Of a stretch of 36,888 nt of DNA, positions 2,369 through 35,546 are shown piece by piece (positions within the stretch are counted from its first letter, which is position 1; every line of letters begins with the position of its first letter). A program made the translations under genes and the position numbers. The DNA is from a virus. Under the pieces are notes generated by a model. That model made no database searches, was not told the DNA's origin, and saw nothing but the letters and a program-made list of their open reading frames with translations. Where the stretch lies: positions 1 through 36,888 of IMG/VR virus record IMGVR_UViG_3300009091_000231. One strand, 5' to 3'.

Positions 2369-2425
2369 ACTTTGAAAACTTAAAGAAAAAGTATATTAAG
2401 TTTTATCTTGACGGAGAAAATGAGT

Positions 2426-2962: not shown

Positions 2963-2981
2963 ATTAAATCATAATGTAGCG

Positions 2982-3010: not shown

Positions 3011-3021
3011 ATTTGTTGTTG
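2986..3021. repeat. 9-bp inverted repeat bracketing a -10 box
   Basis: CAACAACAA at 2986-2994 and its reverse complement TTGTTGTTG at 3013-3021 flank the TATAAT at 3005-3010, with 18 bases between the arms. It could be an operator covering the promoter or a hairpin at the start of the transcript. No T tract follows, so it is not a terminator. Confidence 0.5.
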
Positions 3022-3048
3022 ATTAACCCATAATATAAGGAAATTATA

Positions 3049-3369: not shown

Positions 3370-3371
3370 TT

Positions 3372-3395
3372 AAAAGGCCACAATGTGGCCTTTTT
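3372..3395. terminator. Bidirectional Rho-independent terminator
   Basis: AAAAGGCCAC (3372-3381), loop AAT, GTGGCCTTTT (3385-3394) with T runs on both strands. It sits between the converging DsbA-like gene (+, stop 3369) and the small Cys-containing gene (-, stop at 3394), and overlaps the latter's stop codon. Confidence 0.93.
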
Positions 3396-4525: not shown

Positions 4526-5311
4526 TTAATCCTTAGTACATACTATTAAATTTAAATATTTTGGAGACCAATTAGCTGCTCCAGTATTACCACTTGTACT
4601 ACCAGAAATAGTATGAGAATGATCACCTGCTACTCCTGTTTGGGTTGCTAAGAAATTATATCCTAGACCACCAAATGTGTTCCCTCCACCACCCCAACTA
4701 TCTGGAACAGTGTGAGTATGATTACCATTAGTACTAGTTGTTCCACTGAAAGTATGAGTATGACTTGGTACTTTATCCATTAATATTGGACTATCTATAC
4801 CACTATATCCACCACCACCTGTTCCACCAGATCCAGTTGTTCCACCAGCAACAGCAACAACTCGTAACATTCTATTATCTGTCGTCACGGTAACATCTTG
4901 TGTCCATCCAGTTGGTGCTGATGGTTGAGCCCAAACTAATTTTGAACCAGATGGAATGCTACTAGTTGATAGTGCAGATAATACTCCACTTGTCATAGTT
5001 AATCCACTACCAATCATAACAGCACCTAATACTGTTGCTGAAGCTGTTGGTAATATTCCACTTAAATCATTAATATTTAATACAACATCTCCAGTTCTAG
5101 TATTAAACGAAGTAACCTCCCCACCAGGAGCTTCCATAGTTCCAGATAAGGTTTTCCAAGTACTCCCATCATAAAAATAAACTAATGATGTACTTGTATT
5201 AAAAAATAGACGACCTGCATATAAACTAGTAGTTGGGTTAGTAGATCCCCCCTCTACTGTTAAATTTGCAGCCTGGGTTCCTGCTGCTAACTCAATTCCA
5301 TAAAAAAGCAT
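4526..5311 (-). CDS. Tail fibre tip protein (collar-type), paralogue 1
   Basis: 261 aa, AAGGGA before ATG 5311. Same architecture as the next gene: MLFYGIELAAGTQAANL, Trp module GRLFFNTSTS...FYDGSTWKTL near residues 32-55, SFNTRTGDVVL, VLGAVMIGSGLTM, then the tip with SAPTGWTQDVT and NRMLRVV, a Gly-rich stretch, His-x-His elements SHTHTFSGTT, NHTHTVPDS and DHSHTISGS, and the C-terminus WSPKYLNLIVCTKD. The N-terminus and shaft motifs are conserved between the pair; the loops between HxH elements differ in sequence and length, as expected for diversifying receptor-binding loops. First gene of a late transcript. Confidence 0.82.
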   Translation of the reverse strand: MLFYGIELAAGTQAANLTVEGGSTNPTTSLYAGRLFFNTSTSLVYFYDGSTWKTLSGTMEAPGGEVTSFNTRTGDVVLNINDLSGILPTASATVLGAVMIGSGLTMTSGVLSALSTSSIPSGSKLVWAQPSAPTGWTQDVTVTTDNRMLRVVAVAGGTTGSGGTGGGGYSGIDSPILMDKVPSHTHTFSGTTSTNGNHTHTVPDSWGGGGNTFGGLGYNFLATQTGVAGDHSHTISGSTSGNTGAANWSPKYLNLIVCTKD

Positions 5312-15879: not shown

Positions 15880-18800
15880 TTAATCGTCAAACATACCGTT
15901 GACTTCCAGTATTCTTATACCGTGTAATGCTACCCAAGATGTTTTCATTAGTCCTTTATATTTAGATTTAGTGGACAAAGCATCTTGAAGCAATTCAAAC
16001 CAAATACCATTAACATGTTCTGCTCCAAACGTATCATAAATTTCAATCATTGCTGCCTGAATTCCTGCTGGAGTTGTAAAAGTATTACGGAAGAAAAAGT
16101 TATTAATATCTATTGGGGCAAAATCTCGTGTTGGGTCTAACAAATAAGTTAATAAGGTTTTAAGTCCTAATGTTTTATTTACAAAAGCTTGACCCAATTC
16201 TAGTCCATAACGAGTTTCGGTTCCATACTTATCATAATAATTATCATCATACAACACACGATCAAGTGATGGAACTGGGGTTCCATCAGTTAATGATACA
16301 CCGGTTAATGCCTCTATTGCTTTATTCCATAAAAATTGTGAAATATTATTAGATTGTTTTTCACGAAACATTAACCATTCTTCGTGTTTATCTTTCAAAT
16401 CTAATTCACCCATTATAGTATTACTATGATCACGTAACGCTAAATCACGAGTAAACTGAATCATATAACGATTATTATCATTAATATAATTTGCCACATT
16501 ACGAATAATTGCTTCTCTATATATAACTGGACTAGATACGATAGGATTAATCGGTTCTCGAACATCCCATATAATACCATAATCTTGTTGAGCATATCCA
16601 TAAGTTGATTGTACAATATCACTATCTAGTGGTTTCTGTACAATAAAATATGGGTCAGGCATTGTTGACATATAATTAGTAATTTCTGAAGTTGACATAC
16701 TAGATGGATCAGTATTTTTTGTAGTAGATTTTTCTACCCAGAAATAATAATTAAGAGTAGAAGTTCCACTAACTCCAACTGATGTAACACTCTGTGAATA
16801 TTCATAATCTTCTTTCCAATGTACATCTGTAGTACCATCATCACTTAATGAAGGATCAAAATTTGATTCTGTTGAGGTTAATGAATGTATTGGTCTTATA
16901 ACATCAATATAATCATATAATTGAACAACCATATTTGAACCAACAGTAGATACTTCAAATCTATCTAATGTAGCATTATATACTACAGTACCAGTAGTAT
17001 ATAATTTTCCGTTTAGATATACATTAACCGTATCATTGGGATACCAAATATCTCCACCAACAGTAGCTTTCCAATATAATAATGGTTCTGTATCAGTACT
17101 TAACCATGCTCCTATAATACGTTGTTTAGCTGATAATTGTTGAATCCAATTATCAGATGTAAATATTGGAACAATTGTAATAGGTTTAACTACATTATTC
17201 AATGTTAATTGACCTACTTCACCATTTTGTATTGTAATTGGTGTATCATTAAAAGTATTAATTTCAAATGTTTGAATGTCTGTATTATTAATATTTCGCA
17301 AAGAATATTCAGTATTAGATGCTCCTATAACATTAATAAAATTAAAATCAGTCATAGTTCTGAATAAATTACCATCTGTAATTGTTACTTGTGAAGTACT
17401 TCCTGATGCTGAAGTAATACGAATATTTCCGTTTACTAACGTTGCAGTTGCATATATCCCCAAAGCTGTGTTGATTTTTAGCATCAATGCTGAAAATGTT
17501 TGGGTAGTGTCTCCAACAACTGAAAGACTTCTTGTAACATTATCAATATCGAAAGTTGCTGTATATGCAGTAGTATCATTAGCCAATCCTGTAGAACTTG
17601 AATCAACTTTTTCTGTGGTATATATAACTTCTTGATAACCATACGAAGCTACTGGAATAGTTGTTGAACCTTGTGGAAATAATCCATTTGGAATAGTAGA
17701 AATAGTAATTATATCTCCTAATGATAACACTCCAGAATCAACTTTAAAAACTTGGATAGGATTTTTATTATTCCCAATATTAATTATAGTAGCAAGAATA
17801 ACTGGACCTGCTATATCAGTTATAAGTCCATTATTGTTCACAGATGCTATACTAAAAGTTTGTGGATTGTCTCGAGTTGCAGCATCTACAACATATTGAG
17901 TTTGATTTTGTAATTCAGTAGGTAAAGCAGAAGTGGCAGTAAAATATACTATCTGTCCAGTTATATAAGAACCTGCTGGTACTGTTACAATTGTTGGATT
18001 ACCGAATCTTATAGTTCCATCAGATATATTTCTAGTACGTTTAAATAATAATTTTCTAGCTGTTCCAGTTATCTTTTGATTTTGTGGAATAGTTATATTA
18101 CCTTGTTGTTGTAAAGCAATTGCATCCCATTCTGAAGGAACAACATTTGAACGAACCCATTGATATACTTTAATATTCGCATATTCAGCTATATTACCCC
18201 ATTTGTATAATCTATCGTTAATATCTGGATAAACACTTTCATCATAATAAGGAATATACCCAAGTTGAGAAGTATCTAACCATATTGTTCCAACTTCAGC
18301 AAAATCCCAAAAATGTCCTGGAATATCAGCAGAATTCATTGTTACAGAATAAGTAGCAGGATCTTTATCACTTTTTAAATTAATATTATATAAGGCTTTA
18401 TAACTATGTATTCCAAATGCTGGATGCCATAAAGCAATTCTATCAATAATTATACCTGTTTTTCTATCCACTAATTTTGCAGGATTGAGTTTGTCAATGG
18501 ATGGTCTAACGGTATAAATGTGAATAATATCAAAAAATGCTGATTGATCTATACGAGTAACTTCTGAGTTTAATTTAACGTATTGACGTGTACCAGTATA
18601 TTGATCTATTAATAAGTTTGTGCTATATAAACTATAATCCACATCAAAATATGTTAATTTCCCATTATCTTCATCATATGGTATAGGTGTAGTAACTGAA
18701 ATATATGTAATATTTCGGAGCTCATCAAATACAGTACCATCTACAATATATGTACCATTATTGTGAACTGTTTGACTTATTGTCACAGTAGTTCCAGGAT

Positions 18801-21800
18801 ATAAACGTGTTGTCATATCTTCTGCTACTGAAAAAGTATTAGTAGAATCAATAATAGCAGTAGATGAAAATGAATGTATTATGGATATCATTTTACTAGA
18901 TATATTAGCATTACGACGAATAATCCGAATATCATCACAAGGCTCATCATGATGCCAATAAACATAATTAGATGTTATATGAATTTTATTATTAATTAAT
19001 GTAGTCCAATCAACAGTATTCCAACTTCTTAATGTATTATCTGTAGTATTATACCAATATTCAAAATCTGAACTACTTATAGGAGATGGTGGAATTGGTG
19101 CTATAAAAACACGACTCAAACTAGATATGTCAGAATCTAAGAAAAGAGGTTGAATAATTTCAGCACGTTGTTCTGGAAAGTTATTCCAACGAGAATCATC
19201 AGCAAATGATACTAATTTAAATCCTTTTGAGGTTACAGCATATGTAATATCTGCTCTTGTAATATCATCTTCTAATCCAACAAATTCAAAACGAATATCA
19301 TCAACTATTGCATCATTTGTAAATAATAATATTTCTGGATATATACGAGGTCTATTATCACCAAATTCAGCAATTTTAACCGCCCAAAATTCATCAATCT
19401 TTGCATCAATAAATCGACGTGAATTAATATATGCTACTATACTAGATACAGAACCTTTTGCGTGCAACATTCCACGATAAAAAAGGAATTGAGATTTTGA
19501 ATTTACATTCAACATTTCCATATAAGGTACTTTACCTGTATATCCTAACAATGAACGAGCAAGTTTAATATTAGGGGAATCTTCTGAACCAGCATATGTA
19601 TCATAAAAGTTTTGTAAGTCTGTTGCTGATCCTTCAATATTACGATTAAATGCATTACCTCTTAAATAAAAACCACCTAATGTTGGACGTAAAGTATTTT
19701 CTGCTTTTTTAAAAAAATTCATTTCAAATTTTGAGGCATATAGTCCTAAAAATGAATCATATACTAAAACATTACCAGCTGTGTACGGATTAAATAACAA
19801 GAAATGTTCATATCCTTCTAAGAAGAAATGTCCTCCACCTAAATGAATATAATTATATGGATCACCTACATAAAACGGATCTACATCATTTGGTAATTGT
19901 GGGAGTATAGTAATACGATTGCGTTCATCTTGTCTATGAACTATAAGTTTATCAGCACTTAGTGCTCTACCATATTGGTCAAATATAGTTTGACGAACTC
20001 TTATATCTGTATATGGACCTGATATAACATTAGATAACACTCCTAATGGAGTATCTAACCATATATTATTACGAGAAGGATTAATCTCAAAACTTGGATA
20101 TGAACGTAACATATCTTTAACAGCAAGATAGAAATGTCCACTACCTTGGGTTAGTAAATCAATATGAAATGCTGTATAGGTAATATCTTTAGAAGCTGAT
20201 AATTTAATAACTCCATCAGTAGCAGTTTTAACTACAAAATATGTTTCATTAGCATCTAAAGGAGATGGTAAAGAACCAGTTGTTGAAACTTGAATAGCTG
20301 TACCATCATTCCAATATGGAATAGTATCTACTACTGTTAATGTATTATCAGTAATATTAACAGTATATTCAAAACGGTCATTTACTACCATACGAGCTTT
20401 ACGTAATCCATAAGCCCAATCTATAAATCTTTCTAATTCAAGAGACCAATTAATTAACCTTCCAGTATTAAAATCAAAATCACCAGAATCAGCAGTATTA
20501 AAAATAACACCACTATCCTGTTGATATTCAGCATATCCATCAATTGTATTAATTAATGTCTGCATTCCAGTTATAACTTGTGGAGATGTTAGAATAAGAA
20601 CTTTACTTTTGTCTAATGCATAATGATACCAAGTTTCTTTTGAATGACTTTCACCACCAAATACATTAAACGAACTTGCAATTTCAGCGATTGTGTGAAT
20701 ACTAACACCCATTGATACTATATCAATACTAATATTAGTAATAGAATCATTAAAAGATTCAGATAATTTAAATGATTGATTTCCTGTATTAATAACATAA
20801 TATGGAGTATTTGGAACCAATGGAGCTGGTAAAACTTTATCAGAACTTAATACCACCATATCTCCAGTCGACCAAGGAAATACAAAAGCAGCTATTGTAA
20901 TAACTCCATTACCAACTGTTCCAACTAATTGTTCTAATACATTAATACGAGTTCTATCTACACTTGATTCATATACAGAAGATACAACAGTAAAATTACC
21001 ATTTATAGAAGAAGATCCTGTTACAGTAATAGTAGTATTGTATACAAAAACATCTGTTTCATTTCCAGCAACATAAAAACGATTTGCTACTGAATCTATA
21101 CCATTAATTAAATAACGATAGGCATAACATTCATCAGTAACCGGATCAACAATAAATGGATAGGCTTTAACATCATAATAATACATATCTCGAGCAACAG
21201 AAGCTAAACTTGTAAGTTCAAGTTTCCATTTATTTTGGTTATTGTACTGAATAATAGAAGGTGGAATACCAACTACACTAATATTAAAAGCATCAATCCA
21301 TAATTCTCTAAAAGAACCATTATTAATTAAAACCACATTATAATCTGTATTAATAATATCAAATTTTTTATTAGCAATATCTAAGGTACTTGTATCAACA
21401 ATACTATTAAATTGATAAGTTAATAAAGGTGTCCAACCAGCCCATAAGTCTCTAAATTCAACATTTGTATCATAACCAGCAAAACGATTAAAGTTAACAT
21501 ACCATTGATTTAACCCCTTCGCGACATATACTCCATTAACTCCGTACATATCACCATGAAACAAAACATCTGAGTGACTATACACTTGTCCAAAAGTAGT
21601 ATCAACTTCTAATCCGTCTACATATGTATATCTTGGACCAAATGATGCACGAAGAAACTTAACAGGTTGCATTAAAAATGCAATGATAGGATTTTCGTAT
21701 GGATACTGAGGAGATATATTCCACTGCCATTCAATAATATTGCCATCACCAAAAATATAATCAGCATCAGGTACTTTTATTTGATTCATATTCGTAAAAA

Positions 21801-24800
21801 ATGAACGAACATGAGCATCTGATGTTACATAATAAGGAGGTAATAGTTGATCAGGAGTATATCCACCTGTTATAGTAGAATTAGTAATATTAACACTAAA
21901 ATAAATATATGTTCTTAATGATTGACCATCAGTACCTGAATTACCTGTACTTACTCTTCCATCGGGATATGTTCGTCCAGCAGGAACTTGTCCGGTACGT
22001 ATATTCTCCCACATTCCAGTTCCAAGAGAAGAACCACTTGGAGCATAATTAAATATCCAAGTACGTGTACCATTAGTTTGTTTATATTCAGTATCCCACC
22101 AAGTTGGTTTACCATCAAATCCTTGTAGTTTCCAAGGTTCTAAGTGTGGATATGGTGTACCATACCAACTTGTATATAAAGCTTGCCAACATGCTGATGG
22201 GGATGGAGCAGTATATGAATGTGGTGGAGTTAAAATAGTACTAGTTATATAATTCCAAGTAAAAGCATCTGTTTGTCTATATTGAGTATTAACAAATGGA
22301 ACTGGTACAGAATGATTAATAACATATTCATCAAAACGTTTTCTATATTTTTGATCATAAACAAGTTGTTCAGATGAAGTTGGTGTTAATGTAGAATAAT
22401 CATATACAGGTACTACTCCTATACACATCTCATATAATCTATTTTCAAGTTCTAAATATACTTCACCTAATAAAGTTTGAAAATCAATTTCTTGCCATAA
22501 TAGTTGTATATCACCAGCTCCAGGAGTGGTAACTCCTATCCAATTTAATCCAGATTTTCTATAAACAGCATGAGTAATAATATTGTAATAGTATATTCCA
22601 TCTAATATTTCAACACCATTATAATAAAAAGATGGATGTACAGCACTTGCCATATACATTTCAAAACGATAAAACGTACGTGGAGAACCAGTTTTATACC
22701 AAAATACTCCTGAACGTATTTCAGAACCACCATATTGTGTTAAAAATGCAGATTCAGTTGCTGGTGGAGCTGTTAATCCTGAAGCTCCTAATGTTTGTCC
22801 TGATATACGAGGGTCAGCTAAAGATATTATTTTACGAGCAATTGCATCTTCTTCAGCTAAACTATATACAATATCAGTTCTATGTCCATCATGGTGATAA
22901 ACTTGTGTAAATGTACCATCATCTAATAGATGTGGTTGATAATATGGAGCTAATCCAAACATAGGAGCAGTTGCAATCCAATTACGAACACCATTACCAG
23001 TTACTTCATCATATGCAGTAGTATCTCCATATAATTTTGCAACATAATCATTATCTTCATATAAAGCAATCACACTATTAGTAATATGTTGAGAAAATGT
23101 TTCAACTCCTTCAACAACATATTGTCCACATAAATCAATAACAGCACGATTAAAAATATCTCGAACAAATCTAATATTAGCAGCATAGTCATTACTAGCA
23201 TACTCAATTACACCAACAGGAGTAGTATTTGTTACATTAATAGCAGAAATTAAAGTGTCAAATGCACCATTAAATTCTTTAATTGTTCCTCCAACACCAT
23301 AATTATATTCTGATTGAACTTTTGTATATACTCCACCACTAATTAATCCTAATGTTGGTGCTTGATTATCAATTATACCTCTAAAATGTGTAACTAATTG
23401 TGATAAAGATACACTTGGTCTATTACGATGTTCTGGATTATATATCCATTGTTTTACTACTTCCCAATCACCATTAGCAGAACCAACTGGAACTACATTA
23501 CGTTTTTTATCTACATATTGTGGAACGTATTGTTCATTATTAGTTCCACGTCTCCAAATGGTACGAAGAGTTGGATCAGCATCGTTTATAATTACTCCTG
23601 GTATTACTATCCAAGATGTTGTAGCAACATTACGACGATATAAAGTATTAGTAGTTGTGTTAAACCATAAGGCTTGATCCATAGTCCATAATTCAATAGG
23701 ATCTGTAGATTGAACTATAATTGTTCGTAAAGTAGTACCATTTACTGTGGGGAGTAATACACTATCAGACCAAGTATACCCATCCCAATATAATACTTTT
23801 GAAGTAAGTTGACTATACCAATATTGTCCAACTACAGGAAGTAATAAATTTCTATATCCATATAGATAATTATCATCTGTATCTAACGAATGTGGTGCTA
23901 ATAAATGTTGGTCAAATTCAAAGTCAATTCCATTATTTGTTACTACTATACGACGTTGAACAGCACTATTAATTGGGGCATCTTGGCTTTCTTTAAATGT
24001 AATGATAGGTGAAGCAAACATAACATTTCCAGACATAAGATCATATACATTAAACAATGGATATTGATTTATCTCAATTTTATGTTGTTCTGCTAATACA
24101 AATTCTGTTAAACTTTGATATATTGGTTGTTGTGAACTATTAACTAATGCTGAAAATGTAGCATCATCTTCAATAGTACGAACTGGAACAGCATACATTC
24201 CCATATCACGTACAGAAGCAGGACTAACTTCAATACGAATAAGGTCTCCACTTTTTAAAATAGCTAATGATGTAAAAGTTATTCCAACTACAAATGGTAT
24301 TCTACCTGTGAATGTAGTAATATTACCAACAGCAGTGTAACTAGGAAATCCTGTTGAAATATTTTCTATATATGTTCCATATTGACGAATCCCATTAACG
24401 TATACTCTCAATTCATTACTATTTGGTGTAGCATATGGATTAGCATTACTAGAATTATATTGAAGAGATGGCACTAAATCAATAGTTGTTGGAGGGGTCT
24501 GTCCAACAGTAAGTTCTTGGAAAGTATATCCAAAGGATATTTGATCAACTCCTGGTAATGTATTTGTAACAGCATCATTCACTTGAAAGAAATTCAAAGA
24601 TTGTGGATTAGTTGCAGTTGTCGTAATATTAGTAATATCTAACACCCAATGAACGTGATATCCGTACCAATTATCTCCTCTTGAAGTTTTAGTGGGAATA
24701 ATACGAGCTTGATTTAAACCACCAACTGATGGTGCCATAAAGGTAGTTTCTTTAATTCTTACAACGGTAACAAAATAATTTCCTTGAAGAGCAGGATTAG

Positions 24801-26829
24801 TTGATGTATCCATTTCCCTATATTCTGACCAATCTACTGTGTATACATCATGAAATCCAATATCATTTACAATACTAAATTTATATTCTGGAATGAAAAC
24901 ATCAGTTAAATTAATATTAGCATTCATAGTAGATGTTTTATCAAACAAATAGATATACCAAGCACCACTAACTCCTTCTACTTGATATCCTTTTATTGGT
25001 TCCAACTCAATACGTGATGGACTTATAGTTGAAACTTCAAATACATCTGTTGATGTTTTACGATATTTCCAAGTACGTTGAACTTTAGACCATTCATTTA
25101 ATTCTAAATTGGAATCATATTCTAAAATCGGAACTTGAGCTCTTTTTACGTTAGCATATGTATTAATAGCTGTTTTATGTTGCCATCTATTTTGATTAGA
25201 CCATTGATTTAGTACTTGAGATACACAATCTATATTTTCATCCCAATTTTCTGTAGCAGTTGTTAATGTTAATACTGCTGAAAAATTAGAAGCTACAACA
25301 TTCCAACTAGGAACAAATAATGGATCAGATGGTATAGGATGAAGTAGATCACCATATTGTTTTAGTTGATTTGTTGAAGTATCATACCATAAGGTAAGAG
25401 GTAAAGGTTGCCCACCAACCATCATTGTTGGGTCAGCACTATTATAAGCAATCCAATCTGCTTCTGTTGAAAATGATATTTTAGTTAATAGGGTAGTATT
25501 CCAAGCAACATTACCAATACTATTATCATCCCATAATCCAATATCCCAACCTATATCGTTATGACATTTACAATTTACTTGTGTTTGAAATATTAACAAT
25601 AACTCAGAAAGAGATATATTAGCTATAAATGATTTATTAGTTGCTATCCAAGTTGATCCATCCCATGTATATAATATTTTAGAAGAAGGTTGATACCACC
25701 ATTCACCAATAAATGTGGGAGTAGGAGCAGTTTCACCATTATATGCTAATGGGGTTACTGTTTGAATAATAGTTGTATTTGTCACATCATCATATGTAGC
25801 TAATGAAGTTGTCCAATATTTGTTTTGCATATTAATAGTTGAACTATCTTTTGTTAAAAAAACAAATCCAGATACAAATAAATCATCTTGTTTACCTTCT
25901 ATTGACAATGTATTATCAGCAAAAGAAGAACTAAGTATAGTAAATAATGCTGGAATAATAATTTGAGCAACTATGGTATCAGTATATTCGATCCAAGTAG
26001 TTCCATTCCATTCTTGTAAATTATTAGTTGTTGTATTATACCACCAATCACCTATACTTGGATTAATAGGTTGTATAGTTGGAGCTATAACTTCAGCTAC
26101 TTTAACTTTCGTTTTATTACTACTAATATCATACGTTACACTAACAGTTCTCCAATATTTGTCAGTCAGTTGGGTTGTATTGGACAAGTTAGTATAAAAA
26201 GTAAAGTCAGTTGAAAAAATATTATCTTGTTTACCCTGTAATACAAAAGTATTATTAACAAAATCAATAGAAATAACTGGTAAATGAATACCACGTTGTT
26301 GCATTAATGTTTCATAAGATGCTACTTTATCAGAAGCTTTATTACAAACATTCTCAATAGTAAAATATTGTGGAGCATCAGTACTACTCATTCCATTCCA
26401 AAAATAATTTTGATAATTAACTAACATATCAATATTAATAGGAGGAACCCAATTAAATTCTAAAGCTGAACCCCAGATTGGAAGACGATCTATATCGACT
26501 CCTTGTAATTCTAATTGGGTGAGAAAATTATGGTATGATAAGGCTGTCTCTATAGTACCTATTTTTGTATACATTGTAGGAGCTAATTGAAAAGCCTGAC
26601 GATGGGCTTGGTCGTGAGAATTATTAGATACTTCTGGAATTTGGCGATCTACTACAGCATTTGGATTACCTGTTCCTACAAAACCAGAAACACGTATGGT
26701 ATCATCTTTTGTAAATTGACGATCAAATGCCATTTCTGACAAAGTGTTATTAACATCAGATCTATATACTTCTGGTAAGTAATCCTTAATATTAATTTGT
26801 GGCTTTTTGTGATCGCTATAGTTAGTCAC
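15880..26829 (-). CDS. Giant (~3650 aa) baseplate/tail structural protein at the gp7 position
   Basis: One uninterrupted frame of about 10.95 kb. TTG 26835 opens the frame, but AAGGA lies only two bases from it and eight bases from GTG 26829, so GTG (MTNYSDHKKPQ) is preferred: 3649 aa. It follows gp6, where T4 encodes gp7 (1032 aa), so a gp7-like or wedge-periphery role is inferred from order; I cannot confirm homology. It is built partly of repeats. Six to seven Trp modules (pattern WWYN-x-TTTN-x-L-x-x-W-x-G-x-x-W) lie near residues 240-260, 355-375, 460-480, 980-1000, 1030-1055, 1400-1420 and 2565-2590. LP-x-x-Tyr units lie near 2000, 2185 and 2970; NG-turn units near 1945 and 2690. The rest is Tyr/Trp/Asn-rich and beta-prone. 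The C-terminus (SWVALHGIRILEVNGMFDD) is helical. No catalytic motif seen. Confidence 0.85.
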   Translation of the reverse strand: MTNYSDHKKPQINIKDYLPEVYRSDVNNTLSEMAFDRQFTKDDTIRVSGFVGTGNPNAVVDRQIPEVSNNSHDQAHRQAFQLAPTMYTKIGTIETALSYHNFLTQLELQGVDIDRLPIWGSALEFNWVPPINIDMLVNYQNYFWNGMSSTDAPQYFTIENVCNKASDKVASYETLMQQRGIHLPVISIDFVNNTFVLQGKQDNIFSTDFTFYTNLSNTTQLTDKYWRTVSVTYDISSNKTKVKVAEVIAPTIQPINPSIGDWWYNTTTNNLQEWNGTTWIEYTDTIVAQIIIPALFTILSSSFADNTLSIEGKQDDLFVSGFVFLTKDSSTINMQNKYWTTSLATYDDVTNTTIIQTVTPLAYNGETAPTPTFIGEWWYQPSSKILYTWDGSTWIATNKSFIANISLSELLLIFQTQVNCKCHNDIGWDIGLWDDNSIGNVAWNTTLLTKISFSTEADWIAYNSADPTMMVGGQPLPLTLWYDTSTNQLKQYGDLLHPIPSDPLFVPSWNVVASNFSAVLTLTTATENWDENIDCVSQVLNQWSNQNRWQHKTAINTYANVKRAQVPILEYDSNLELNEWSKVQRTWKYRKTSTDVFEVSTISPSRIELEPIKGYQVEGVSGAWYIYLFDKTSTMNANINLTDVFIPEYKFSIVNDIGFHDVYTVDWSEYREMDTSTNPALQGNYFVTVVRIKETTFMAPSVGGLNQARIIPTKTSRGDNWYGYHVHWVLDITNITTTATNPQSLNFFQVNDAVTNTLPGVDQISFGYTFQELTVGQTPPTTIDLVPSLQYNSSNANPYATPNSNELRVYVNGIRQYGTYIENISTGFPSYTAVGNITTFTGRIPFVVGITFTSLAILKSGDLIRIEVSPASVRDMGMYAVPVRTIEDDATFSALVNSSQQPIYQSLTEFVLAEQHKIEINQYPLFNVYDLMSGNVMFASPIITFKESQDAPINSAVQRRIVVTNNGIDFEFDQHLLAPHSLDTDDNYLYGYRNLLLPVVGQYWYSQLTSKVLYWDGYTWSDSVLLPTVNGTTLRTIIVQSTDPIELWTMDQALWFNTTTNTLYRRNVATTSWIVIPGVIINDADPTLRTIWRRGTNNEQYVPQYVDKKRNVVPVGSANGDWEVVKQWIYNPEHRNRPSVSLSQLVTHFRGIIDNQAPTLGLISGGVYTKVQSEYNYGVGGTIKEFNGAFDTLISAINVTNTTPVGVIEYASNDYAANIRFVRDIFNRAVIDLCGQYVVEGVETFSQHITNSVIALYEDNDYVAKLYGDTTAYDEVTGNGVRNWIATAPMFGLAPYYQPHLLDDGTFTQVYHHDGHRTDIVYSLAEEDAIARKIISLADPRISGQTLGASGLTAPPATESAFLTQYGGSEIRSGVFWYKTGSPRTFYRFEMYMASAVHPSFYYNGVEILDGIYYYNIITHAVYRKSGLNWIGVTTPGAGDIQLLWQEIDFQTLLGEVYLELENRLYEMCIGVVPVYDYSTLTPTSSEQLVYDQKYRKRFDEYVINHSVPVPFVNTQYRQTDAFTWNYITSTILTPPHSYTAPSPSACWQALYTSWYGTPYPHLEPWKLQGFDGKPTWWDTEYKQTNGTRTWIFNYAPSGSSLGTGMWENIRTGQVPAGRTYPDGRVSTGNSGTDGQSLRTYIYFSVNITNSTITGGYTPDQLLPPYYVTSDAHVRSFFTNMNQIKVPDADYIFGDGNIIEWQWNISPQYPYENPIIAFLMQPVKFLRASFGPRYTYVDGLEVDTTFGQVYSHSDVLFHGDMYGVNGVYVAKGLNQWYVNFNRFAGYDTNVEFRDLWAGWTPLLTYQFNSIVDTSTLDIANKKFDIINTDYNVVLINNGSFRELWIDAFNISVVGIPPSIIQYNNQNKWKLELTSLASVARDMYYYDVKAYPFIVDPVTDECYAYRYLINGIDSVANRFYVAGNETDVFVYNTTITVTGSSSINGNFTVVSSVYESSVDRTRINVLEQLVGTVGNGVITIAAFVFPWSTGDMVVLSSDKVLPAPLVPNTPYYVINTGNQSFKLSESFNDSITNISIDIVSMGVSIHTIAEIASSFNVFGGESHSKETWYHYALDKSKVLILTSPQVITGMQTLINTIDGYAEYQQDSGVIFNTADSGDFDFNTGRLINWSLELERFIDWAYGLRKARMVVNDRFEYTVNITDNTLTVVDTIPYWNDGTAIQVSTTGSLPSPLDANETYFVVKTATDGVIKLSASKDITYTAFHIDLLTQGSGHFYLAVKDMLRSYPSFEINPSRNNIWLDTPLGVLSNVISGPYTDIRVRQTIFDQYGRALSADKLIVHRQDERNRITILPQLPNDVDPFYVGDPYNYIHLGGGHFFLEGYEHFLLFNPYTAGNVLVYDSFLGLYASKFEMNFFKKAENTLRPTLGGFYLRGNAFNRNIEGSATDLQNFYDTYAGSEDSPNIKLARSLLGYTGKVPYMEMLNVNSKSQFLFYRGMLHAKGSVSSIVAYINSRRFIDAKIDEFWAVKIAEFGDNRPRIYPEILLFTNDAIVDDIRFEFVGLEDDITRADITYAVTSKGFKLVSFADDSRWNNFPEQRAEIIQPLFLDSDISSLSRVFIAPIPPSPISSSDFEYWYNTTDNTLRSWNTVDWTTLINNKIHITSNYVYWHHDEPCDDIRIIRRNANISSKMISIIHSFSSTAIIDSTNTFSVAEDMTTRLYPGTTVTISQTVHNNGTYIVDGTVFDELRNITYISVTTPIPYDEDNGKLTYFDVDYSLYSTNLLIDQYTGTRQYVKLNSEVTRIDQSAFFDIIHIYTVRPSIDKLNPAKLVDRKTGIIIDRIALWHPAFGIHSYKALYNINLKSDKDPATYSVTMNSADIPGHFWDFAEVGTIWLDTSQLGYIPYYDESVYPDINDRLYKWGNIAEYANIKVYQWVRSNVVPSEWDAIALQQQGNITIPQNQKITGTARKLLFKRTRNISDGTIRFGNPTIVTVPAGSYITGQIVYFTATSALPTELQNQTQYVVDAATRDNPQTFSIASVNNNGLITDIAGPVILATIINIGNNKNPIQVFKVDSGVLSLGDIITISTIPNGLFPQGSTTIPVASYGYQEVIYTTEKVDSSSTGLANDTTAYTATFDIDNVTRSLSVVGDTTQTFSALMLKINTALGIYATATLVNGNIRITSASGSTSQVTITDGNLFRTMTDFNFINVIGASNTEYSLRNINNTDIQTFEINTFNDTPITIQNGEVGQLTLNNVVKPITIVPIFTSDNWIQQLSAKQRIIGAWLSTDTEPLLYWKATVGGDIWYPNDTVNVYLNGKLYTTGTVVYNATLDRFEVSTVGSNMVVQLYDYIDVIRPIHSLTSTESNFDPSLSDDGTTDVHWKEDYEYSQSVTSVGVSGTSTLNYYFWVEKSTTKNTDPSSMSTSEITNYMSTMPDPYFIVQKPLDSDIVQSTYGYAQQDYGIIWDVREPINPIVSSPVIYREAIIRNVANYINDNNRYMIQFTRDLALRDHSNTIMGELDLKDKHEEWLMFREKQSNNISQFLWNKAIEALTGVSLTDGTPVPSLDRVLYDDNYYDKYGTETRYGLELGQAFVNKTLGLKTLLTYLLDPTRDFAPIDINNFFFRNTFTTPAGIQAAMIEIYDTFGAEHVNGIWFELLQDALSTKSKYKGLMKTSWVALHGIRILEVNGMFDD

Positions 26830-26856
26830 AGGCAATGTCCTTTTATATCTTCTGAA

Positions 26857-26864
26857 TATTTATA
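26857..26864 (-). promoter_or_regulatory. Late promoter box for the giant gene
   Basis: TATAAATA on the minus strand, exact consensus, 27 bases before GTG 26829 and just downstream of the terminator that closes the gp6 transcript. Confidence 0.8.
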
Positions 26865-26882
26865 AGAGGGTTACGTGTAGAT

Positions 26883-26911
26883 AAAAGTGCTTCTTTATCA
26901 GAAGCACTTTT
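26883..26911 (-). terminator. Rho-independent terminator after gp6
   Basis: AAAAGTGCTTC (26883-26893), 7-base loop, GAAGCACTTTT (26901-26911). On the minus strand it lies six bases after the gp6 stop and ends in a T run. It separates the gp25-gp6 transcript from the giant gene. Confidence 0.9.
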
Positions 26912-26916
26912 AATAA

Positions 26917-29900: not shown

Positions 29901-30357
29901 ATATAAATTGATCTTTCCATTGTTGGTTACTGGCGTCATTCCAACGAATAGTTCTATTAGACAAATTAGTACCATATGCGTCTATTATATTTTCTGTGGT
30001 AGTGACAGAGGTTATTTTAACCAAACCACGAGCTGGTAAAGGACGATCTGCTTTATAAGATACCAACTTAGCTAATCGTAATATAGAATCTTTACGTTGT
30101 GCTGCTGATAAAAAGTTTTCATGTGCATCTATATCAAAACGATAAGCCATCAATTCAGCAACATAAGCAAAAGATTCGATAAGAGCTATGAATTCACTTG
30201 ATTCTATAAAATCATTAAATGTTTCTGGAAAGTACAACTTAACATAATCAAGTAAACTCTGCTTGATTGTATTATAATCAAATGCAGCAAAATTTACGTT
30301 GTTGAAAGCTTCATACACTTTTTCCCAATTTTCTGCTCTGGCAACAAGACGACTCAT
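26917..30357 (-). CDS. 6: Baseplate wedge subunit gp6 (J-like), enlarged
   Basis: 1146 aa against 660 in T4. The N-terminal 120 residues match gp6 closely in layout: SLLDYVKLYFPETFNDFIESS, FIALIESFAYVAELMAYRFD, NFLSAAQRKDSILRLAKLVSY, then LPARG. The J-like core has ARIIFGDGEFADVPSGTFDFW. Extra parts: a calcium-loop-like DENGDGVPD at residues 708-716 and a C-terminal module (about 1080-1146, SWNITHDLG...VITFTMPVVGTARLV) that also occurs as two separate small genes at 12239-12713. gp6 forms the ring that joins baseplate wedges. The start overlaps the gp25 stop (TAATG), with AAGG seven bases upstream. Probably cotranscribed with gp25 from 30762-30769. Confidence 0.93.
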   Translation of the reverse strand: MSRLVARAENWEKVYEAFNNVNFAAFDYNTIKQSLLDYVKLYFPETFNDFIESSEFIALIESFAYVAELMAYRFDIDAHENFLSAAQRKDSILRLAKLVSYKADRPLPARGLVKITSVTTTENIIDAYGTNLSNRTIRWNDASNQQWKDQFILVMNRVLEQNFGTVRASDRFQIENVLFELYALNISPLPTGAVPYTANVNNQAIPMELAPVEYNSTDGIIERRPYNGSNFTLLYGKDGLGDTSHTTGFFCYTKQGILQRFRSTFDGITPNQIYEIPLNNANETDIWVNNIDPVTGAILDIPSLLPYRRDATVGRSGEWVQVDVAHAQNVIFNTNPRRNKYEVETRDNNRARIIFGDGEFADVPSGTFDFWCRSSVDQDIIISQSSVVNQTAAFTYVDSYNRTQTFTFTFSLINSLQNNSASESLEHIRITAPAVYYSQDRMVNGQDYNNFMLQDSSILKLRSLNRTFAGDSKYIPWHDPSTSYENVKIFGNDGALYFQEKVEGVTTPIVNGINDLITTYIEPLLSSTDVFLYVSSYGVPASAFRRVFNSDEKIRLSAGLTPPPSPSNIEMYYNLANNEWYVVQTSDDPSTALATYGWPADFINVPLITVIQQQSESKYQVNRLAKRLIFQSPTTTFWNTNSASRVIDYNTLNADYDQISVLQANPNYNRNNILKQNWNFNVLGLEIIEDGVNIGLADTKRVSVIPIDENGDGVPDHLNINDNNNPQGLADILKPKIVVDLTQTLAPLPETGIRIVLPIYYIIGQNDISVQILGGTPVLSGVDWLEDIANTTGISNVIFLLGDVFGGTLVEVTVNDFVYFIRTTPTSEWTVMSPTPDILSAYVDELATSVGLVKREIGRSGLNFLWLHHSPRYHLVDPAASNIIDTLIIQKVYFLSLKRWLEDPLAAQPQAPTPLDLRLTYNYLINNKMISDTLVLHPGKIKLLFGTKAVLPLQARFKVVRSSDNTMTSNQIKTTLVSTVRNFFDLTVWEFGETFYFTELATAIHAALPIEISTVVLVPTYANNFFGEMFQIQAREDELFYPDVTVDDVDIVSDINATVLRMGQQTVCPVQHPNVFTQVTYEYAFEHTQTVPITSWNITHDLGFYPIVRVYNTTSDEVQPFSVIHLSTREVVITFTMPVVGTARLV

Positions 30358-30737
30358 TATGCTTTACCTTCAAAGGTTATATTTAAATCTAAATTTCCAA
30401 TAATATTCAATTCAATATAAAGTAGTTTAGCACTTGCTACTACCATATTTTCATCATAAAATGGAAGAATTCTTAATTCCATTAGTTGAACTCTTGGGTC
30501 AAAAGCAATTACAGCTCGTAAATCTTCTTCAAGAATATCCAATGTTATTTGGTCTAGTGGTTCAAAGGCTAAATCAGGAATACGTGTTCCAAAATTAGGC
30601 ATCATTACTCGTTCACCTTTATGTGTAAAGATATGATTTAATAAATCCATTTTTACAAGTTCAACGTCTGTTAATATAAATGATTTATTTCGTTGGTATT
30701 CGTATGTTGAATACCCCCTATAAAGTCCTTTACTCAT
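30357..30737 (-). CDS. 25: Baseplate wedge subunit gp25
   Basis: 126 aa (T4 gp25 is 132), GGAG six bases before the ATG. gp25 joins gp6 and gp53 in the core wedge bundle next to the sheath. Seen: SFILTDVELVKMDLLNHIFTHKGERVMMPNFGTRIPDL, the typical gp25/TssE core; then LEEDLRAVIAFDPRV and the strand ELRILPFYD. The family's E-P-R motif reads D80-P81-R82 here. The C-terminal strand LDLNITFEGKA ends one base into the gp6 start. Confidence 0.93.
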   Translation of the reverse strand: MSKGLYRGYSTYEYQRNKSFILTDVELVKMDLLNHIFTHKGERVMMPNFGTRIPDLAFEPLDQITLDILEEDLRAVIAFDPRVQLMELRILPFYDENMVVASAKLLYIELNIIGNLDLNITFEGKA

Positions 30738-30786: not shown

Positions 30787-32259
30787 TTATCGACGCCAAA
30801 ATGGATTTCTTGGTATTTCTTTACCACCTTCCATTTTTCCAACATTTTTATCACTATATTGAAGCTCACCCTCGTGACCAGTATCTTTTTTAGTTATCAT
30901 TCTTCCCCAGGGTTCATGAGCTGGAACTCGATTAGTATAAAAAGCTAACAATGCTTCTTTTGCCTCTTTTGCAGATTCAGCCCCAGGACCGTTTAAATGT
31001 ATTTGAGTACCAGTTTGAATAATTTGTCCACCAGCTTTAATATTAGTAGCTCCATCAGAAGTATAATTTCCTTTACCGCCTGATTTTAAATTCATATCTG
31101 CTTTTGATGTTACATTTACCATAGCACCTGATTTTACATTAGTATCACTTTTCGATTCCACAAATAAAATATTACCAGTTTTTAGATGAATGTCTGTTTT
31201 AGCATACGCTTTGATTTCAGCATCTGAATACATGTGAATACCTTCTTTTGCGTACATTCTAATAGATTTATCAGAAGTCATATTAATATCTGAAGCTGCT
31301 CTAATACTCACTCTACTATTAGAAAATATATCTATATTACCAGCTTGATCCATCTCAACCCAATTATTACCTTGAGCTGTTGAAATATAAATTCGTTCAT
31401 TCGTATCATCTAATAATATCTGATGTCCAGACATAGTACGAAAACGCATTCTACAGTTTTCCATTCTATCATCCATTGACATAGAATGAAATCCAGGTGA
31501 AGTTATAGAATAAGTTTGAGAGTCATAATTTTTATCAGTTATTCCAGTTCCACCGCTTGGGTCAAATCGACTTGTTTGATAACCTTGTGTACTTGTCCAC
31601 CCATCACCACTATCCGTTGCTTTATCATCTTGAACTCTAGAACCAGAATATGCTAAATGACTAACATCAACACGAGAAACAGCATAATCAGCAGCTCTTG
31701 TTTGCCATTCAAAAGCTTGGTCACTATTACCAAAAGCTTTTTGTATATTACTAGCTAATGGTTGAATTAATTTATCTCCAGAAGAATATGGACCATAAGG
31801 TTTTGCTTTAGGTTTATCTCCTAATTCTGGATGATCTTCAAACATCCAACGACCGTGAGGCATTGTATGAGTTGAAAAAGCATCAAATACACAACCTAAA
31901 TAAATTCTTTGTTGGTGTTCTTCATCTAAACTCATAACAACAACTTGAGCACCTACTTTTGGAATAGCCCACATACCATAAGCGATACCACCTTCAGTTT
32001 GTTTAATTCCAGGTCCACGAGTACCTACAGAAGTTTGTCCACCAAATGGTGTTACATACATAGCCCAAGGCATCCCCTCCACATTATGTTCCCAAGAATC
32101 TCCCCAAGCTTGAACTAATACTCGAACACGACCCCATTGCATTGGATCATTTGTATCAATTACCGTACCTATAGCAACAATATCACTAAATGGAGTATTT
32201 GCATTATGTCCACCATTAGAATCTTCTAATAACTTTTTTTGTTTAGTAATTACTGCCAT
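30787..32259 (-). CDS. 5: gp5/VgrG-like central spike protein without lysozyme domain
   Basis: 490 aa (T4 gp5 is 575). N-terminal OB-fold at residues about 25-130: FSDIVAIGTVIDTNDPMQWGRVRV, then WAIPKVGAQVVVM and IYLGCVFD. The VgrG/gp5 hallmark TMSGHQILLDDTNERIYIST is at 275-294, followed by a repetitive triple-stranded beta-helix (NIDIFSNSRVSIRAASDINM onward) to about 425, and a conserved tail VPAHEPWGRM at 445-454. Between OB-fold and helix T4 has a lysozyme domain; the 130-270 stretch here shows no such catalytic pattern and looks like a linker. The muralytic domain is in the next gene upstream. AAAGGA before the ATG; no late box of its own, so probably read from the hub transcript. Its tip is the PAAR protein at 11434. 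Confidence 0.9.
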   Translation of the reverse strand: MAVITKQKKLLEDSNGGHNANTPFSDIVAIGTVIDTNDPMQWGRVRVLVQAWGDSWEHNVEGMPWAMYVTPFGGQTSVGTRGPGIKQTEGGIAYGMWAIPKVGAQVVVMSLDEEHQQRIYLGCVFDAFSTHTMPHGRWMFEDHPELGDKPKAKPYGPYSSGDKLIQPLASNIQKAFGNSDQAFEWQTRAADYAVSRVDVSHLAYSGSRVQDDKATDSGDGWTSTQGYQTSRFDPSGGTGITDKNYDSQTYSITSPGFHSMSMDDRMENCRMRFRTMSGHQILLDDTNERIYISTAQGNNWVEMDQAGNIDIFSNSRVSIRAASDINMTSDKSIRMYAKEGIHMYSDAEIKAYAKTDIHLKTGNILFVESKSDTNVKSGAMVNVTSKADMNLKSGGKGNYTSDGATNIKAGGQIIQTGTQIHLNGPGAESAKEAKEALLAFYTNRVPAHEPWGRMITKKDTGHEGELQYSDKNVGKMEGGKEIPRNPFWRR

Positions 32260-32280: not shown

Positions 32281-34227
32281 TTAAGCTACAGTAGTTGATG
32301 GACCTGTAACTACTGTACTGGAATTTTTGTTTGGAGTTGCTTGACCATTATCTATTTTATTAGAAGAAGAAACTGTAGCATTATCAGCTTTACTATCTGG
32401 TACCTTAGGGCAAGTAGATGATTTTGCTGGATCTTCTTGTTTCTTTTCTTCATCTGAACAACTTGTATAAGCAGATAACATATCTTTAGCTTTTGGTTGT
32501 TGTTTACTTGCTGTTTCAGAAACATTATCAGTATTAGTAACTTGTAGTTTATCATAATTATCATATGGAGCACCATTTTTAAGACGACCTCCCATAATAT
32601 TTTTTGCCCAAATTTGTACTTCAAGAGCTGTTGAATCAGTGGGAAGACCTTGACCTGTTAAGGCATCATCTGTTACATTTGCATGATGATTTCCATTTCC
32701 AGCCGCAATTTGTTTTAAAATAGCAGGACCTCCTCCTTCTCCTTGATTATGAGCAAGATATAAATCACTAGCTGTTACAACATGTCCAGGTAATGCTTTT
32801 TGTATTACTTTCGTATTGTGTTTCATATATCTTGCTGCAGCATCAGCATTAGCATTCATATCAAGCACACTTGCTCCTCTACCATATGCTGCCCAAGTTC
32901 CTCCTTGAACCCACCCATGTTTTGTTTTAGTTCTAGTAGTAAATTGGAATAAACCTTGAGCATTATGAGATGGTTTTCCCATATTAGCACCGAATTTACT
33001 TTCAACAGCAGCAAATTGTGCTAAAGTAAATTCATCAACACCATTATTAACAGCAGCGTTATGTATTGCTTGTTTAACTTCCTCTGGTGCTCCATCATAT
33101 CCTTTAATATTAGATAAATTTCTATCTCTTGGAACATCTTCTGAGACTTCTTGTTTAATTCTTGGATGGTCTATAATATCTGGTGGTGGTTTTTCTGGTA
33201 ATACTGCTGATGAAGTAGTAGTTGGACTTTTATTAGAACTACCTCCACACCCTATAACATTATCATAACATTCTTGAACTAATTTTCCAAGTTTAACATC
33301 TCTTTCTGCTGAGGTATTCTTTTCTTGAGTAAAGGAATTCTTTTCAGGTATACCCAATGCTTGTAAGTTTTGATAAAATTCTCCATTATCAAAAACATGT
33401 TGAATCCCATATATGAAATAATATCCAGAAAACCAAAAATCTACAGCATAATCATTAGACTTAGAAGTTTCATCTTCTGAAGTTTGAGATCCTGTAAATA
33501 ATGATTGATCATCATTGTTACGTGGCATTTTTATATTAATCTTAGCAAAACAAGGTGCTAATGACCAATCAGAAAATTTTGCAAAATTATCATCAGCAGA
33601 TGGAATATTAACACGTTGAGCCATATTTTTTGGATCAGTTGTAGCATTTATAGAACCTAATAAATGAGGATTACCAGTTATTTTTACTGCTGCTTCTATG
33701 GATTCTAATGAAGCATGTTTTGTCATACTATATGAAAATTGTGATGTTTGTTTTGTGTCTTGTGTATCTTTAATACTGGCTGTTTTTATATTTGTTCCAA
33801 AAAACACAGGAATATTCTGTCCATTTTGACGAGTTAATATATCAATACCAGCTGGATGTGTTCCAGCTATAGCTACTTGTTGTCCTGGTTGTTTATATGG
33901 ATTTGCTATAGTCATACCTTGAAGATATACCATTCCCATATTCATCTTGATATCAAACTCTAAAATATCAATATTCCTGCCAGTATAGATATAATCATAT
34001 TCAATTAGATTTTCTCCCATTTTAGCAGCACTTGCTCCACTAGCAGCCGCATCAAATGATACACTATGTGGTTGTACTTGTCGCTCAACTCTATATTCAA
34101 CTGTATATTCTGTTTTTTTATCCTTTCCAGAACCAGTAGGTTTAGACTCAACTCGTGAAAGAATTTTTGTAATATATTTGGTATTATCAACACCAACATC
34201 AGCCTCTGCTTTGATTTCAGAACACAT
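32281..34227 (-). CDS. Baseplate hub protein, C-terminal part with SLT-type lytic transglycosylase domain
   Basis: 648 aa in this frame. Residues 1-300 continue a hub-type protein: NLIEYDYIYTGRNIDILEFD at 73-92 is the hallmark of gp27-like hub proteins of many myoviruses. After a Ser/Pro linker (328-372) comes a lytic transglycosylase/goose-lysozyme-like domain at about 375-525: AAVESKFGAN with the likely catalytic E409, AQGLFQFTTRT at 423-433, and SDLYLAHNQGEGGGPAIL at 487-504. The tail (560-648) is low-complexity. It should cut peptidoglycan as the tail penetrates. ATG 34227 has no ribosome site, and the preceding gene's frame runs on through it. Base usage at third codon positions switches to this frame at 34227. 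The two ORFs are therefore likely halves of one ~967-aa protein. Confidence 0.85.
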   Translation of the reverse strand: MCSEIKAEADVGVDNTKYITKILSRVESKPTGSGKDKKTEYTVEYRVERQVQPHSVSFDAAASGASAAKMGENLIEYDYIYTGRNIDILEFDIKMNMGMVYLQGMTIANPYKQPGQQVAIAGTHPAGIDILTRQNGQNIPVFFGTNIKTASIKDTQDTKQTSQFSYSMTKHASLESIEAAVKITGNPHLLGSINATTDPKNMAQRVNIPSADDNFAKFSDWSLAPCFAKINIKMPRNNDDQSLFTGSQTSEDETSKSNDYAVDFWFSGYYFIYGIQHVFDNGEFYQNLQALGIPEKNSFTQEKNTSAERDVKLGKLVQECYDNVIGCGGSSNKSPTTTSSAVLPEKPPPDIIDHPRIKQEVSEDVPRDRNLSNIKGYDGAPEEVKQAIHNAAVNNGVDEFTLAQFAAVESKFGANMGKPSHNAQGLFQFTTRTKTKHGWVQGGTWAAYGRGASVLDMNANADAAARYMKHNTKVIQKALPGHVVTASDLYLAHNQGEGGGPAILKQIAAGNGNHHANVTDDALTGQGLPTDSTALEVQIWAKNIMGGRLKNGAPYDNYDKLQVTNTDNVSETASKQQPKAKDMLSAYTSCSDEEKKQEDPAKSSTCPKVPDSKADNATVSSSNKIDNGQATPNKNSSTVVTGPSTTVA

Positions 34228-35183
34228 TCAATTATTCTATGAATAGCATCTTCAATACTTACCCCAGCATCTACATGGACATTAGCAGGATCTGGACAAT
34301 GAGGTGTATCCTTTAATTGAACAGCTTGATCATTTACTTGATACGCTGGATTTCCTTCATAAGGTGCTCCACAACTAATAATATAAGTAACTGGACGTAA
34401 AGAGTTAACTAAATCTTCTGATCCTTTTATTTGACCAACTTGTTTTTTAACACAATCAAGATAATGTAAATAATTTTCATTAATTTCAAGTTCTAAGGCT
34501 TTTAAAGTTCCTTCAAATGATCCTTTAGCTTTGAAATTGAATGCTTTAGATGCTTTACTAAAATGTGGTAATCTTGCTGCACTGTTAGCAGCAGCAACAA
34601 AATTAATTTCATAATCACCACCAGCAACTCCAAAATTTCCTACAACATCATAAGCTATAAAAATAACTGGAGGGATATCACTTATAAAGTCAACTCCATC
34701 AGTATCATTATCAAAAGTATATCCAATAAAAAACGTTTTTAATACCCAAAAGGCACCAGCACTATCTACTCCTAATTCTAAACAACATCTTACTACTTGA
34801 TCTAAAAACATAATTCCACGAGGTTCTGATATTGATATACTACCTTCTAAGGCAATAGATGTTCCTCTATCATTCATAGTAGCAGAAGATGCTGTATATG
34901 ATGACCATTGTGTTTTTGTTATAGTAAAGGCAGCATCAGTAGACCCATTAATTAAAATACAATATTGACCAGTACCTCCGGATATTTCAATATTTTTTGG
35001 AGCGTATTTTCCTAATACACTATCCTCTCCAACTCTAAAATTAGCTCCTACTGGATGTTGCCAAGTATCTAATACAGTAGAACCAGCAAGTTTTGATGCT
35101 GTTTCTGATGAATCACATATAGCTAATACATGATAATAACTATATGAACGATACTTAGATAATGAATTTACTGGATTTGACAT
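34227..35183 (-). CDS. Baseplate hub protein, N-terminal part
   Basis: The frame opens at ATG 35183 (AAGG upstream) and stays open to 34005, but only residues 1-319 (to 34227) look coding. They contain SYYHVLAICDSSETASKL, GKYAPKNIEISGGTGQYCILING, ISEPRGIMFLDQVVRCCLELGV, PPVIFIAYDVVGNFG and LKALELEINENYLHYLDCVKKQ, ending in VSIEDAIHRIIE. Beyond that the frame gives a Leu/Arg-rich sequence with G/C-rich third positions, unlike the rest of the genome, while the -1 frame looks coding. So this is the front of a hub protein whose remainder is the 648-aa frame. The family is inferred from the downstream half and gene order (between gp53-like and gp5). Confidence 0.75.
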
Positions 35184-35207: not shown

Positions 35208-35215
35208 TATTTATT
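35208..35215 (-). promoter_or_regulatory. Weak late promoter-like box before the hub gene
   Basis: AATAAATA on the minus strand, about 24 bases before ATG 35183, overlapping the gp53-like stop. One mismatch to consensus in a very AT-rich context; the spacing is right. Confidence 0.35.
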
Positions 35216-35546
35216 ATACAGGAAACGGGGAACTAATCCTTGTTAACATTTCACTAAGCAATCTAGCTCTTGTTGGAACAGTCAGAGTTAATCCTTGTCC
35301 AAATGTGGTAACATCAGAAATAGTATTATATTGTAAGATAAACCATTGTAATCCAGCTTTACCATATAAATCATATGCTAATAAATCAGGTCGTTTATTA
35401 TAACGAGCTGTTAGTGTTAAAGTTATATCAGTAGGAGATTTAGTAAAAACTTTTCGTTCCCACCATCCAAGTCGTGTCTTAAAATCATCTGTATATCCAC
35501 CTTGAATGTATCTACCTTCTGTTTGTGTATTTGATTTTTGTGCCAT
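35214..35546 (-). CDS. 53: Baseplate wedge protein, gp53-like
   Basis: 110 aa (T4 gp53 is 196, so a short form). The diagnostic stretch is ARYNKRPDLLAYDLYGKAG followed by LQWFILQYNTISDV. It corresponds to the RPEELANAIYGNPQLYWVLL region of T4 gp53, and a LysM-like end TLTVPTRARLLSEML follows. gp53 bolts neighbouring wedges together beneath gp25 and gp6. The N-terminal 30 residues (TEGRYIQGGYTDDFKTRLGWW) are polar. AAGGA before the ATG; nine bases after the gp48/54-like stop. Gene order gp53-hub-gp5-gp25-gp6 supports the call. Confidence 0.75.
   Translation of the reverse strand: MAQKSNTQTEGRYIQGGYTDDFKTRLGWWERKVFTKSPTDITLTLTARYNKRPDLLAYDLYGKAGLQWFILQYNTISDVTTFGQGLTLTVPTRARLLSEMLTRISSPFPV

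Follow-up and report, generated by a model that had tools for sequence, protein, structure and literature searches.

The window analysed here, a stretch of 36,888 nucleotides of viral DNA (IMG/VR record IMGVR_UViG_3300009091_000231), carries on its minus strand a series of genes in the order gp53-like, transglycosylase-like, gp5/VgrG-like, gp25 and gp6, followed by a single giant reading frame (Table 1). The labels gp53 and VgrG are what we take the matched PHROG and Pfam names to mean. The giant frame begins with a GTG at 26829, ends with a stop at 15880 and comprises 3649 uninterrupted codons for a protein of 412.1 kDa predicted mass. The coordinates, the single frame and the size of about 10.95 kb given by a sequence-only reading of this DNA therefore hold, with the addition of the strand, which that reading had left unstated. 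Counted from a TTG, as in the ORF listing, the frame would span 15880-26835 and encode 3651 aa; the GTG is the better start, preceded by AAAAGGA.

The giant gene is real. Over the same stretch, no open run in the five remaining frames is longer than 119 codons, and the chance of a 3649-codon open run given the base composition is about 10^-132. The third codon position is AT-rich in both the giant ORF and the neighbouring gp6 gene (GC3 of 0.111 and 0.135, respectively). Scans of the window found no N, no tandem array and no homopolymer run over 7, and no near-identical DNA was found in phage records.

A hairpin with a T-rich tail (-17.4 kcal/mol, z -7.7) separates gp6 from the giant gene, and the word TATAAATA, a possible T4-type late promoter, lies about 28 bases before the giant start. 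Of the terminator-late promoter pair proposed earlier, the hairpin stands, but the late promoter is weakly indicated, because TATAAATA occurs 8 times in the window against 11.2 expected by chance in shuffled sequence. The profile matches of the upstream neighbour place the giant gene directly downstream of gp6, as had been claimed. No support was found for the further statement that other baseplate genes follow it: the first ORF there has no PHROG match and the second belongs to a PHROG of unknown function.

Table 1. Features of the window, by position (1 to 36,888)
Feature	Positions	Strand	Remarks
Tail-fibre-like ORF	3741-4520	minus	adjacent to the next; same C-terminal PHROG families 2097 and 25747
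Tail-fibre-like ORF	4526-5311	minus	C-terminal PHROG families 2097 and 25747
Second ORF after giant, 411 aa	12720-13955	minus	PHROG 11259, function unknown
ORF after giant, 536 aa	14255-15865	minus	no PHROG match
Giant ORF, 3649 aa	15880..26829	minus	GTG start
Module C, residues 3519-3649	15883..16275	minus	own gene in L019/L020/L210/L211/L213, L023/L206 and L208
Module B, residues ~2561-3518	16276..19149	minus	separate or joined to C in some relatives
Third module, residues 3064-3165	17335..17640	minus	elsewhere in the giant, or in separate genes, in relatives
Beta-module copy, residues 2663-2747	18589..18843	minus	i-E 6.9e-10
Beta-module copy, Trp-hairpin part, residues 2581-2610	19000..19089	minus	i-E 3.8e-7
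Module A, residues 1-~2560	19150..26829	minus	best-conserved part; own gene in some relatives; border from split points in L023/L206, L028/L214, L195/L197 and L204/L205
Conserved stretch, residues 2376-2480	19390..19704	minus	motif FYxGxIxxKGT; predicted helix flanked by mostly beta regions
Beta-module copy, residues 1915-1972	20914..21087	minus	i-E 2.5e-13
Small beta-barrel module copy 2, residues 305-396	25642..25917	minus	i-E 4.4e-26
Small beta-barrel module copy 1, residues 191-281	25987..26259	minus	iterated profile i-E 7.9e-29; model
AAAAGGA	26838-26844	minus	precedes GTG
TATAAATA, possible late promoter	26857..26864	minus	T4-type
Hairpin with T-rich tail	26882..26912	minus	terminator-like
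gp6 C-terminal ~60 residues	26920-27105	minus	putative shared terminal domain
gp6-type baseplate wedge protein, 1146 aa	26917..30357	minus	PHROG 10646 (E 7.8e-268), PHROG 219 (E 1.2e-19)
gp25-type wedge protein	30357..30737	minus	PHROG 261 (E 6.7e-18), PHROG 43 (E 1.2e-13)
gp5/VgrG-like ORF with OB domain	30787-32259	minus	
Transglycosylase-like ORF	32281-34227	minus	overlaps the next by 223 bases, in a different frame
ORF	34005-35183	minus	no PHROG match
gp53-like wedge protein	35214-35546	minus	

Two further observations concern the neighbouring genes. The C-terminal ~60 residues of gp6 are 42-50% identical to parts of hypothetical proteins from phages of Rhodobacter, Dinoroseobacter and Erwinia; they also match several PHROGs without known function at their C termini, and appear to be a shared terminal domain carried on a wedge protein. 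In Salicola phage SCTP-2 (L008, 1569-10859), the gene at the gp6 position itself encodes 3096 aa.

Relatives of the giant protein

Over four stretches, the giant protein matches PHROG 10938 ('virion structural protein'; E 1.2e-71, 242 bits), and is, by sequence, a member of this already catalogued giant protein family. A Pfam search with the protein returned no family at E<=1, consistent with the earlier statement that it has no apparent enzymatic motif. Residues 2339-2925, used as a tblastn query, matched 45 of 50,697 phage records. All 12 of the matching records that were opened have a single ORF in the same slot, of 3138-4555 aa: XacN1 (ORF325, 3313 aa), Stenotrophomonas phage RAS14 (WAX21643.1, 3138 aa), PA5oct (gp355, 3857 aa), Atu_ph07 ('structural protein', 4449 aa), RaK2 (ORF070, 3326 aa), Vibrio 2.275.O (gp424, 3771 aa), SCTP-2 (gp140, 3807 aa), Phosso (294, 4555 aa), GAP32 (GAP32_230, 3341 aa), Kaldavass (CDS0421, 3339 aa), PBECO4 (gp538, 3333 aa) and Munch (gp262, 3342 aa). 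The gene just upstream is annotated as baseplate wedge in seven of the 12 (XacN1, PA5oct, RaK2, Phosso, GAP32, Kaldavass and PBECO4) and matches PHROG 10646 in Atu_ph07. The XacN1 and RAS14 proteins, which also follow gp25 and gp6, are homologous to the window protein from N to C terminus at about 32-33% identity; the window protein is 336-511 aa longer and contains small beta modules in several copies (at residues 191-281, 305-396 and elsewhere). The other ten, at 3326-4555 aa, share a homologous core at 18-20% identity, but their C-terminal module gives no convincing alignment.

Relatives are also common in metagenomes. A scan of viral contigs with residues 2339-2925 as a single sequence gave no matches; with an alignment of 13 rows (the window protein and the 12 opened phage proteins) as query, at least 561 stretches encoding relatives were found in IMG/VR, of 599 pattern stretches, and 80 were kept for analysis. 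These loci hold 51 complete ORFs bearing the N terminus, with a median of 3434 aa, a maximum of 5268 aa and 23 of at least 3649 aa; pieces of split genes are among the ORFs counted, and all lengths run stop to stop. Of 73 metagenome loci that could be tested, 64 have a gp6 ORF whose end lies no more than 400 nt from the start of the giant; six of the other nine have gp6 further upstream or overlapping, and three (L083, L030 and L041) have none in the locus. Cyanophages S-SSM4 (CYXG_00059, 6932 aa) and ACG-2014d (gp071, 6817 aa) likewise have a giant in the post-gp6 slot, but these proteins are almost twice as long as the window protein and show no detectable similarity to its family. Because giants occupy the slot in all the opened records, in the IMG/VR relatives and in cyanophages, a giant size is thus ordinary there for large myoviruses, and is not the distinguishing feature that the sequence-only reading took it to be.

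That reading had also placed the protein in the virion, and proteomics of relatives bears this out. The record for PA5oct gp355 carries the note ESI-MS/MS. phAPEC6 gp245 (381.88 kDa), with 17 unique peptides and 7.6% coverage, is listed beside gp244, 'baseplate wedge', in Table 1 of its report (PMC7247149), and the available portion of the CBB report gives CBB_236 as a structural protein with 21 peptides, beside CBB_237, 'baseplate wedge' (PMC5259590); gp245 and CBB_236 were assigned to the family by neighbourhood and size, not by sequence. ORF325 is not named in the available portion of the XacN1 paper (PMC5852040), and the accessible parts of the literature on the PHROG 10938 family yielded no passage that names a function for the giant protein. 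PHROG 10938 is filed under 'head and packaging', as a head-internal or ejected protein would be, but the location behind gp53-, gp5-, gp25- and gp6-like genes and the recurrence of the gp6 neighbourhood across relatives make such a role very improbable.

Core, inserts and structure models

In an alignment of 85 rows, window included, 1597 of the 3649 residues fall at columns occupied in 80% or more of the rows. Another 863 residues, in 14 stretches, fall at columns with occupancy below 30%; these cut-offs for 'insert' are our own choice. Iterated profiles, with overlapping definitions, count five barrel-type module copies and six Trp-rich hairpin copies in the window giant, the hairpin number being the highest among the 85 rows. 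Repeated small beta modules account for part of its excess length. The third module (residues 3064-3165) occupies a different place in the giants of L019, L020 and L023, and several relatives carry it in distinct downstream genes of ~700 aa. Both repeated modules recur outside the giant gene: the barrel in the tail-fibre-like ORFs at 4526-5311 (i-E 7e-7) and, more weakly, at 3741-4520 (i-E 0.0026), and the Trp-hairpin in the former.

All 43 members scanned match PHROG 10938 in the region of residues 2376-2480. This stretch is a candidate counterpart, as yet unproven, of the helical core of gp7; its similarity to gp7 is not significant. A carbohydrate-binding module, CBM_5_12, matches eight of the 43 members in the conserved helical segment (alignment A7; best E 7.6e-5).

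Structure models were made of residues 1-1180 (mean pLDDT 74.5) and 2240-3340 (mean pLDDT 56.9); the latter, which holds the candidate core, is poor. Foldseek found no PDB match at E<=0.001 for either. With VIA-align, the N-terminal model matched small barrels, similar to EF-Tu domain II, though weakly. The best match was to a Klebsiella capsule lyase (Z 8.7, rmsd 2.4 over 78 residues; model residues 176-412), and a weak one aligned 63 residues (model residues 767-870) to CBA120 tailspike 4 (Z 6.3, rmsd 2.5). All fold matches of the 2240-3340 model were under Z 5. The absence of gp7, with its helical core and domains V and VI, from the fold-match lists proves nothing. BFVD gave 40 matches at E<=0.001, among them, as expected, the Atu_ph07 structural protein.

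Split genes in relatives

Of 50 close loci found with the C-terminal module, 12 divide the chain between two or three ORFs that meet at module borders; several of these 12 represent one virus type sampled in different metagenomes. Seven are broken at about residue 2560-2766 (L023, L195, L197, L204, L205, L206 and L214), two of which (L023 and L206) have a second break at 3519; four are broken only at 3519 (L208, L210, L211 and L213), and L217 is broken between residues 2932 and 3331. The second genes begin with their own start codons: their translations open with, for example, MTDQTKILP or MTDRDKRLP at a point where the unsplit relatives have LTD. A Shine-Dalgarno-like word stands before some of them. 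L031, L191 and L226 also show splits near the N terminus, but these may be frameshifts and were left out of the count. In L219-L221, the C module lies in a gene of about 620 aa, and the rest of the giant is missing from the locus; in L220, primase-like and HNH-like genes lie near it.

In a tree of 105 core sequences, rooted at the midpoint only, the four rows broken at ~2560 are interspersed with unsplit rows, and four changes are required to explain them (bootstrap 5-95% range 4-4). A further split is seen in L054, which lies in the other half of the tree. The split count is a lower bound, because the label 'fused' on the tree takes in L018, L031, L191, L226, contigs cut off before the junctions, and L054, which is actually split. 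The simplest reading is that several independent splits occurred, by repeated fission of an ancestral single chain.

The sequence-only reading had pointed out that several separate genes in related phages would suggest an assembly fusion here. A minority of loci do have separate genes, as an artefact of sequencing error that joined several genes would predict, but there is no sign of such an error: in L225, the closest contig, the frame continues across those junctions unbroken, and the window lacks ambiguous bases and long homopolymers. The single ORF carried by each of the 12 named phage records excludes assembly fusion, which we give practically no credence.

Comparison with gp7

In T4, gp7 directly follows gp6, the position held by the window giant, but it is only 1032 aa long. 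The sequence-only reading put the giant protein at the gp7 position and called for searches with gp7 profiles; these give no support for descent. A tblastn search with T4 gp7 matched 1434 records, with none of the giant family among the 50 matches listed, a selection spread over the matches. A 95-row gp7 core profile, which does detect the cyanophage giants, found nothing significant in 85 giant family members. Likewise, when 58 overlapping windows of the family were compared with the gp7 core by hhalign, the best probability was 2.3 of 100; a full-length hhalign comparison was uninformative with a shallow gp7 alignment, and the deeper 95-row core profile gave the same result. An hmmscan of 43 core members returned no gp7 or Tail_P2_I family. 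PDB sequence searches found nothing with the whole giant protein or with profiles A3 and A2, and only an unrelated chain with A7 (E 0.076); the method works, because the gp7 profile A4 recovers the T4 gp7 entries.

Nor was a gp7 core found elsewhere in the complete genomes of relatives (0/12, against 3/3 for T4 and two cyanophages as controls). PF09684 (Tail_P2_I) was also absent from the 12 genomes, in a test insensitive enough to miss T4 gp7 as well. A gp8 profile found T4 and the two cyanophages and none of the 12 genomes. The gp7 name is thus one of position alone.

The window protein may still share an ancestor with T4 gp7 and have grown by insertions, as the cyanophage giants did, an idea compatible with a structural role in the wedge. 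In cyanophage giants at L101 (88-20886, 6932 aa) and L102 (107-20560, 6817 aa), the gp7 core is split by an insert of ~630 residues, with profile i-E of 4e-7 to 4e-6 for its first half and 4e-8 to 7e-8 for its second. Besides the shared slot, this precedent favours the idea, as do the five best of the 58 profile windows: none is significant, but they cover residues 2281-2601 and 1-261, and the best centre on residues ~2437-2458, with the motif FYxGxIxxKGT, and on the N terminus. By eye, the motif resembles the FYSTKG stretch of the gp7 core. Because these windows fall on stretches predicted to be helical in a mostly beta chain, common descent is a fair lead, but no more. Weighed against the failure of every profile comparison and of the hmmscan to reach significance, we find this origin conceivable and lean slightly against it.

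A different origin would make the giant a protein of the outer wedge or of the fibre network that has come to occupy the gp7 slot, the role of gp7 being lost or absorbed by an enlarged gp6. The gp6 of the window, at 1146 aa, does exceed the 660 aa of T4 gp6, the family shows no gp7 similarity, and the beta modules shared with tail-fibre-like ORFs and the weak tailspike 4 match would fit a fibre-related protein. All 12 complete genomes would then lack a recognisable wedge initiator, as judged by the gp7 core profile and by the insensitive PF09684 search, and we consider such a replacement rather unlikely.

A proposed role in the baseplate wedge

We think it probable that the giant is a structural protein of the baseplate wedge in a myovirus of the jumbo-phage type, filling the slot of T4 gp7. 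The ORF itself, its family, its place after gp25 and gp6, and the presence of relatives in virions all point to this role; that it joins gp6 in the wedge is what we infer from them. In this model, a conserved core of about 1600 residues, including the short helical stretch near 2400-2470, would join gp6 in every wedge, in the manner of T4 gp7, which forms a heterotrimer with a gp6 dimer. The remaining residues would form inserted beta modules on the wedge exterior, with surfaces that serve fibres and spikes for docking or as levers. If each wedge holds one copy, as we assume, the protein would add 6 x 412 kDa, or about 2.5 MDa, to the baseplate. The chain is modular, and its linkers near 2560-2766 and 3519 tolerate division between separate genes, so the parts probably fold on their own and come together on assembly.

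A bolder version of this model is that one chain replaces several T4 wedge proteins (gp7, gp8 and perhaps fibre-docking parts), the recurrent splits, which fall at the same two linkers in different lineages, marking subunit borders. We regard this as possible, with considerable doubt. If true, the baseplate could work with a single covalent chain or with the chain divided into two or three subunits.

The protein is among the largest virion proteins of a widespread group of phages, and the places where relatives naturally split it show where its parts end and could be cut for expression. The family also corrects the impression of a unique giant: post-gp6 giants are the rule in the opened phages of the RaK2, PA5oct and XacN1 types, and occur in cyanophages as well.
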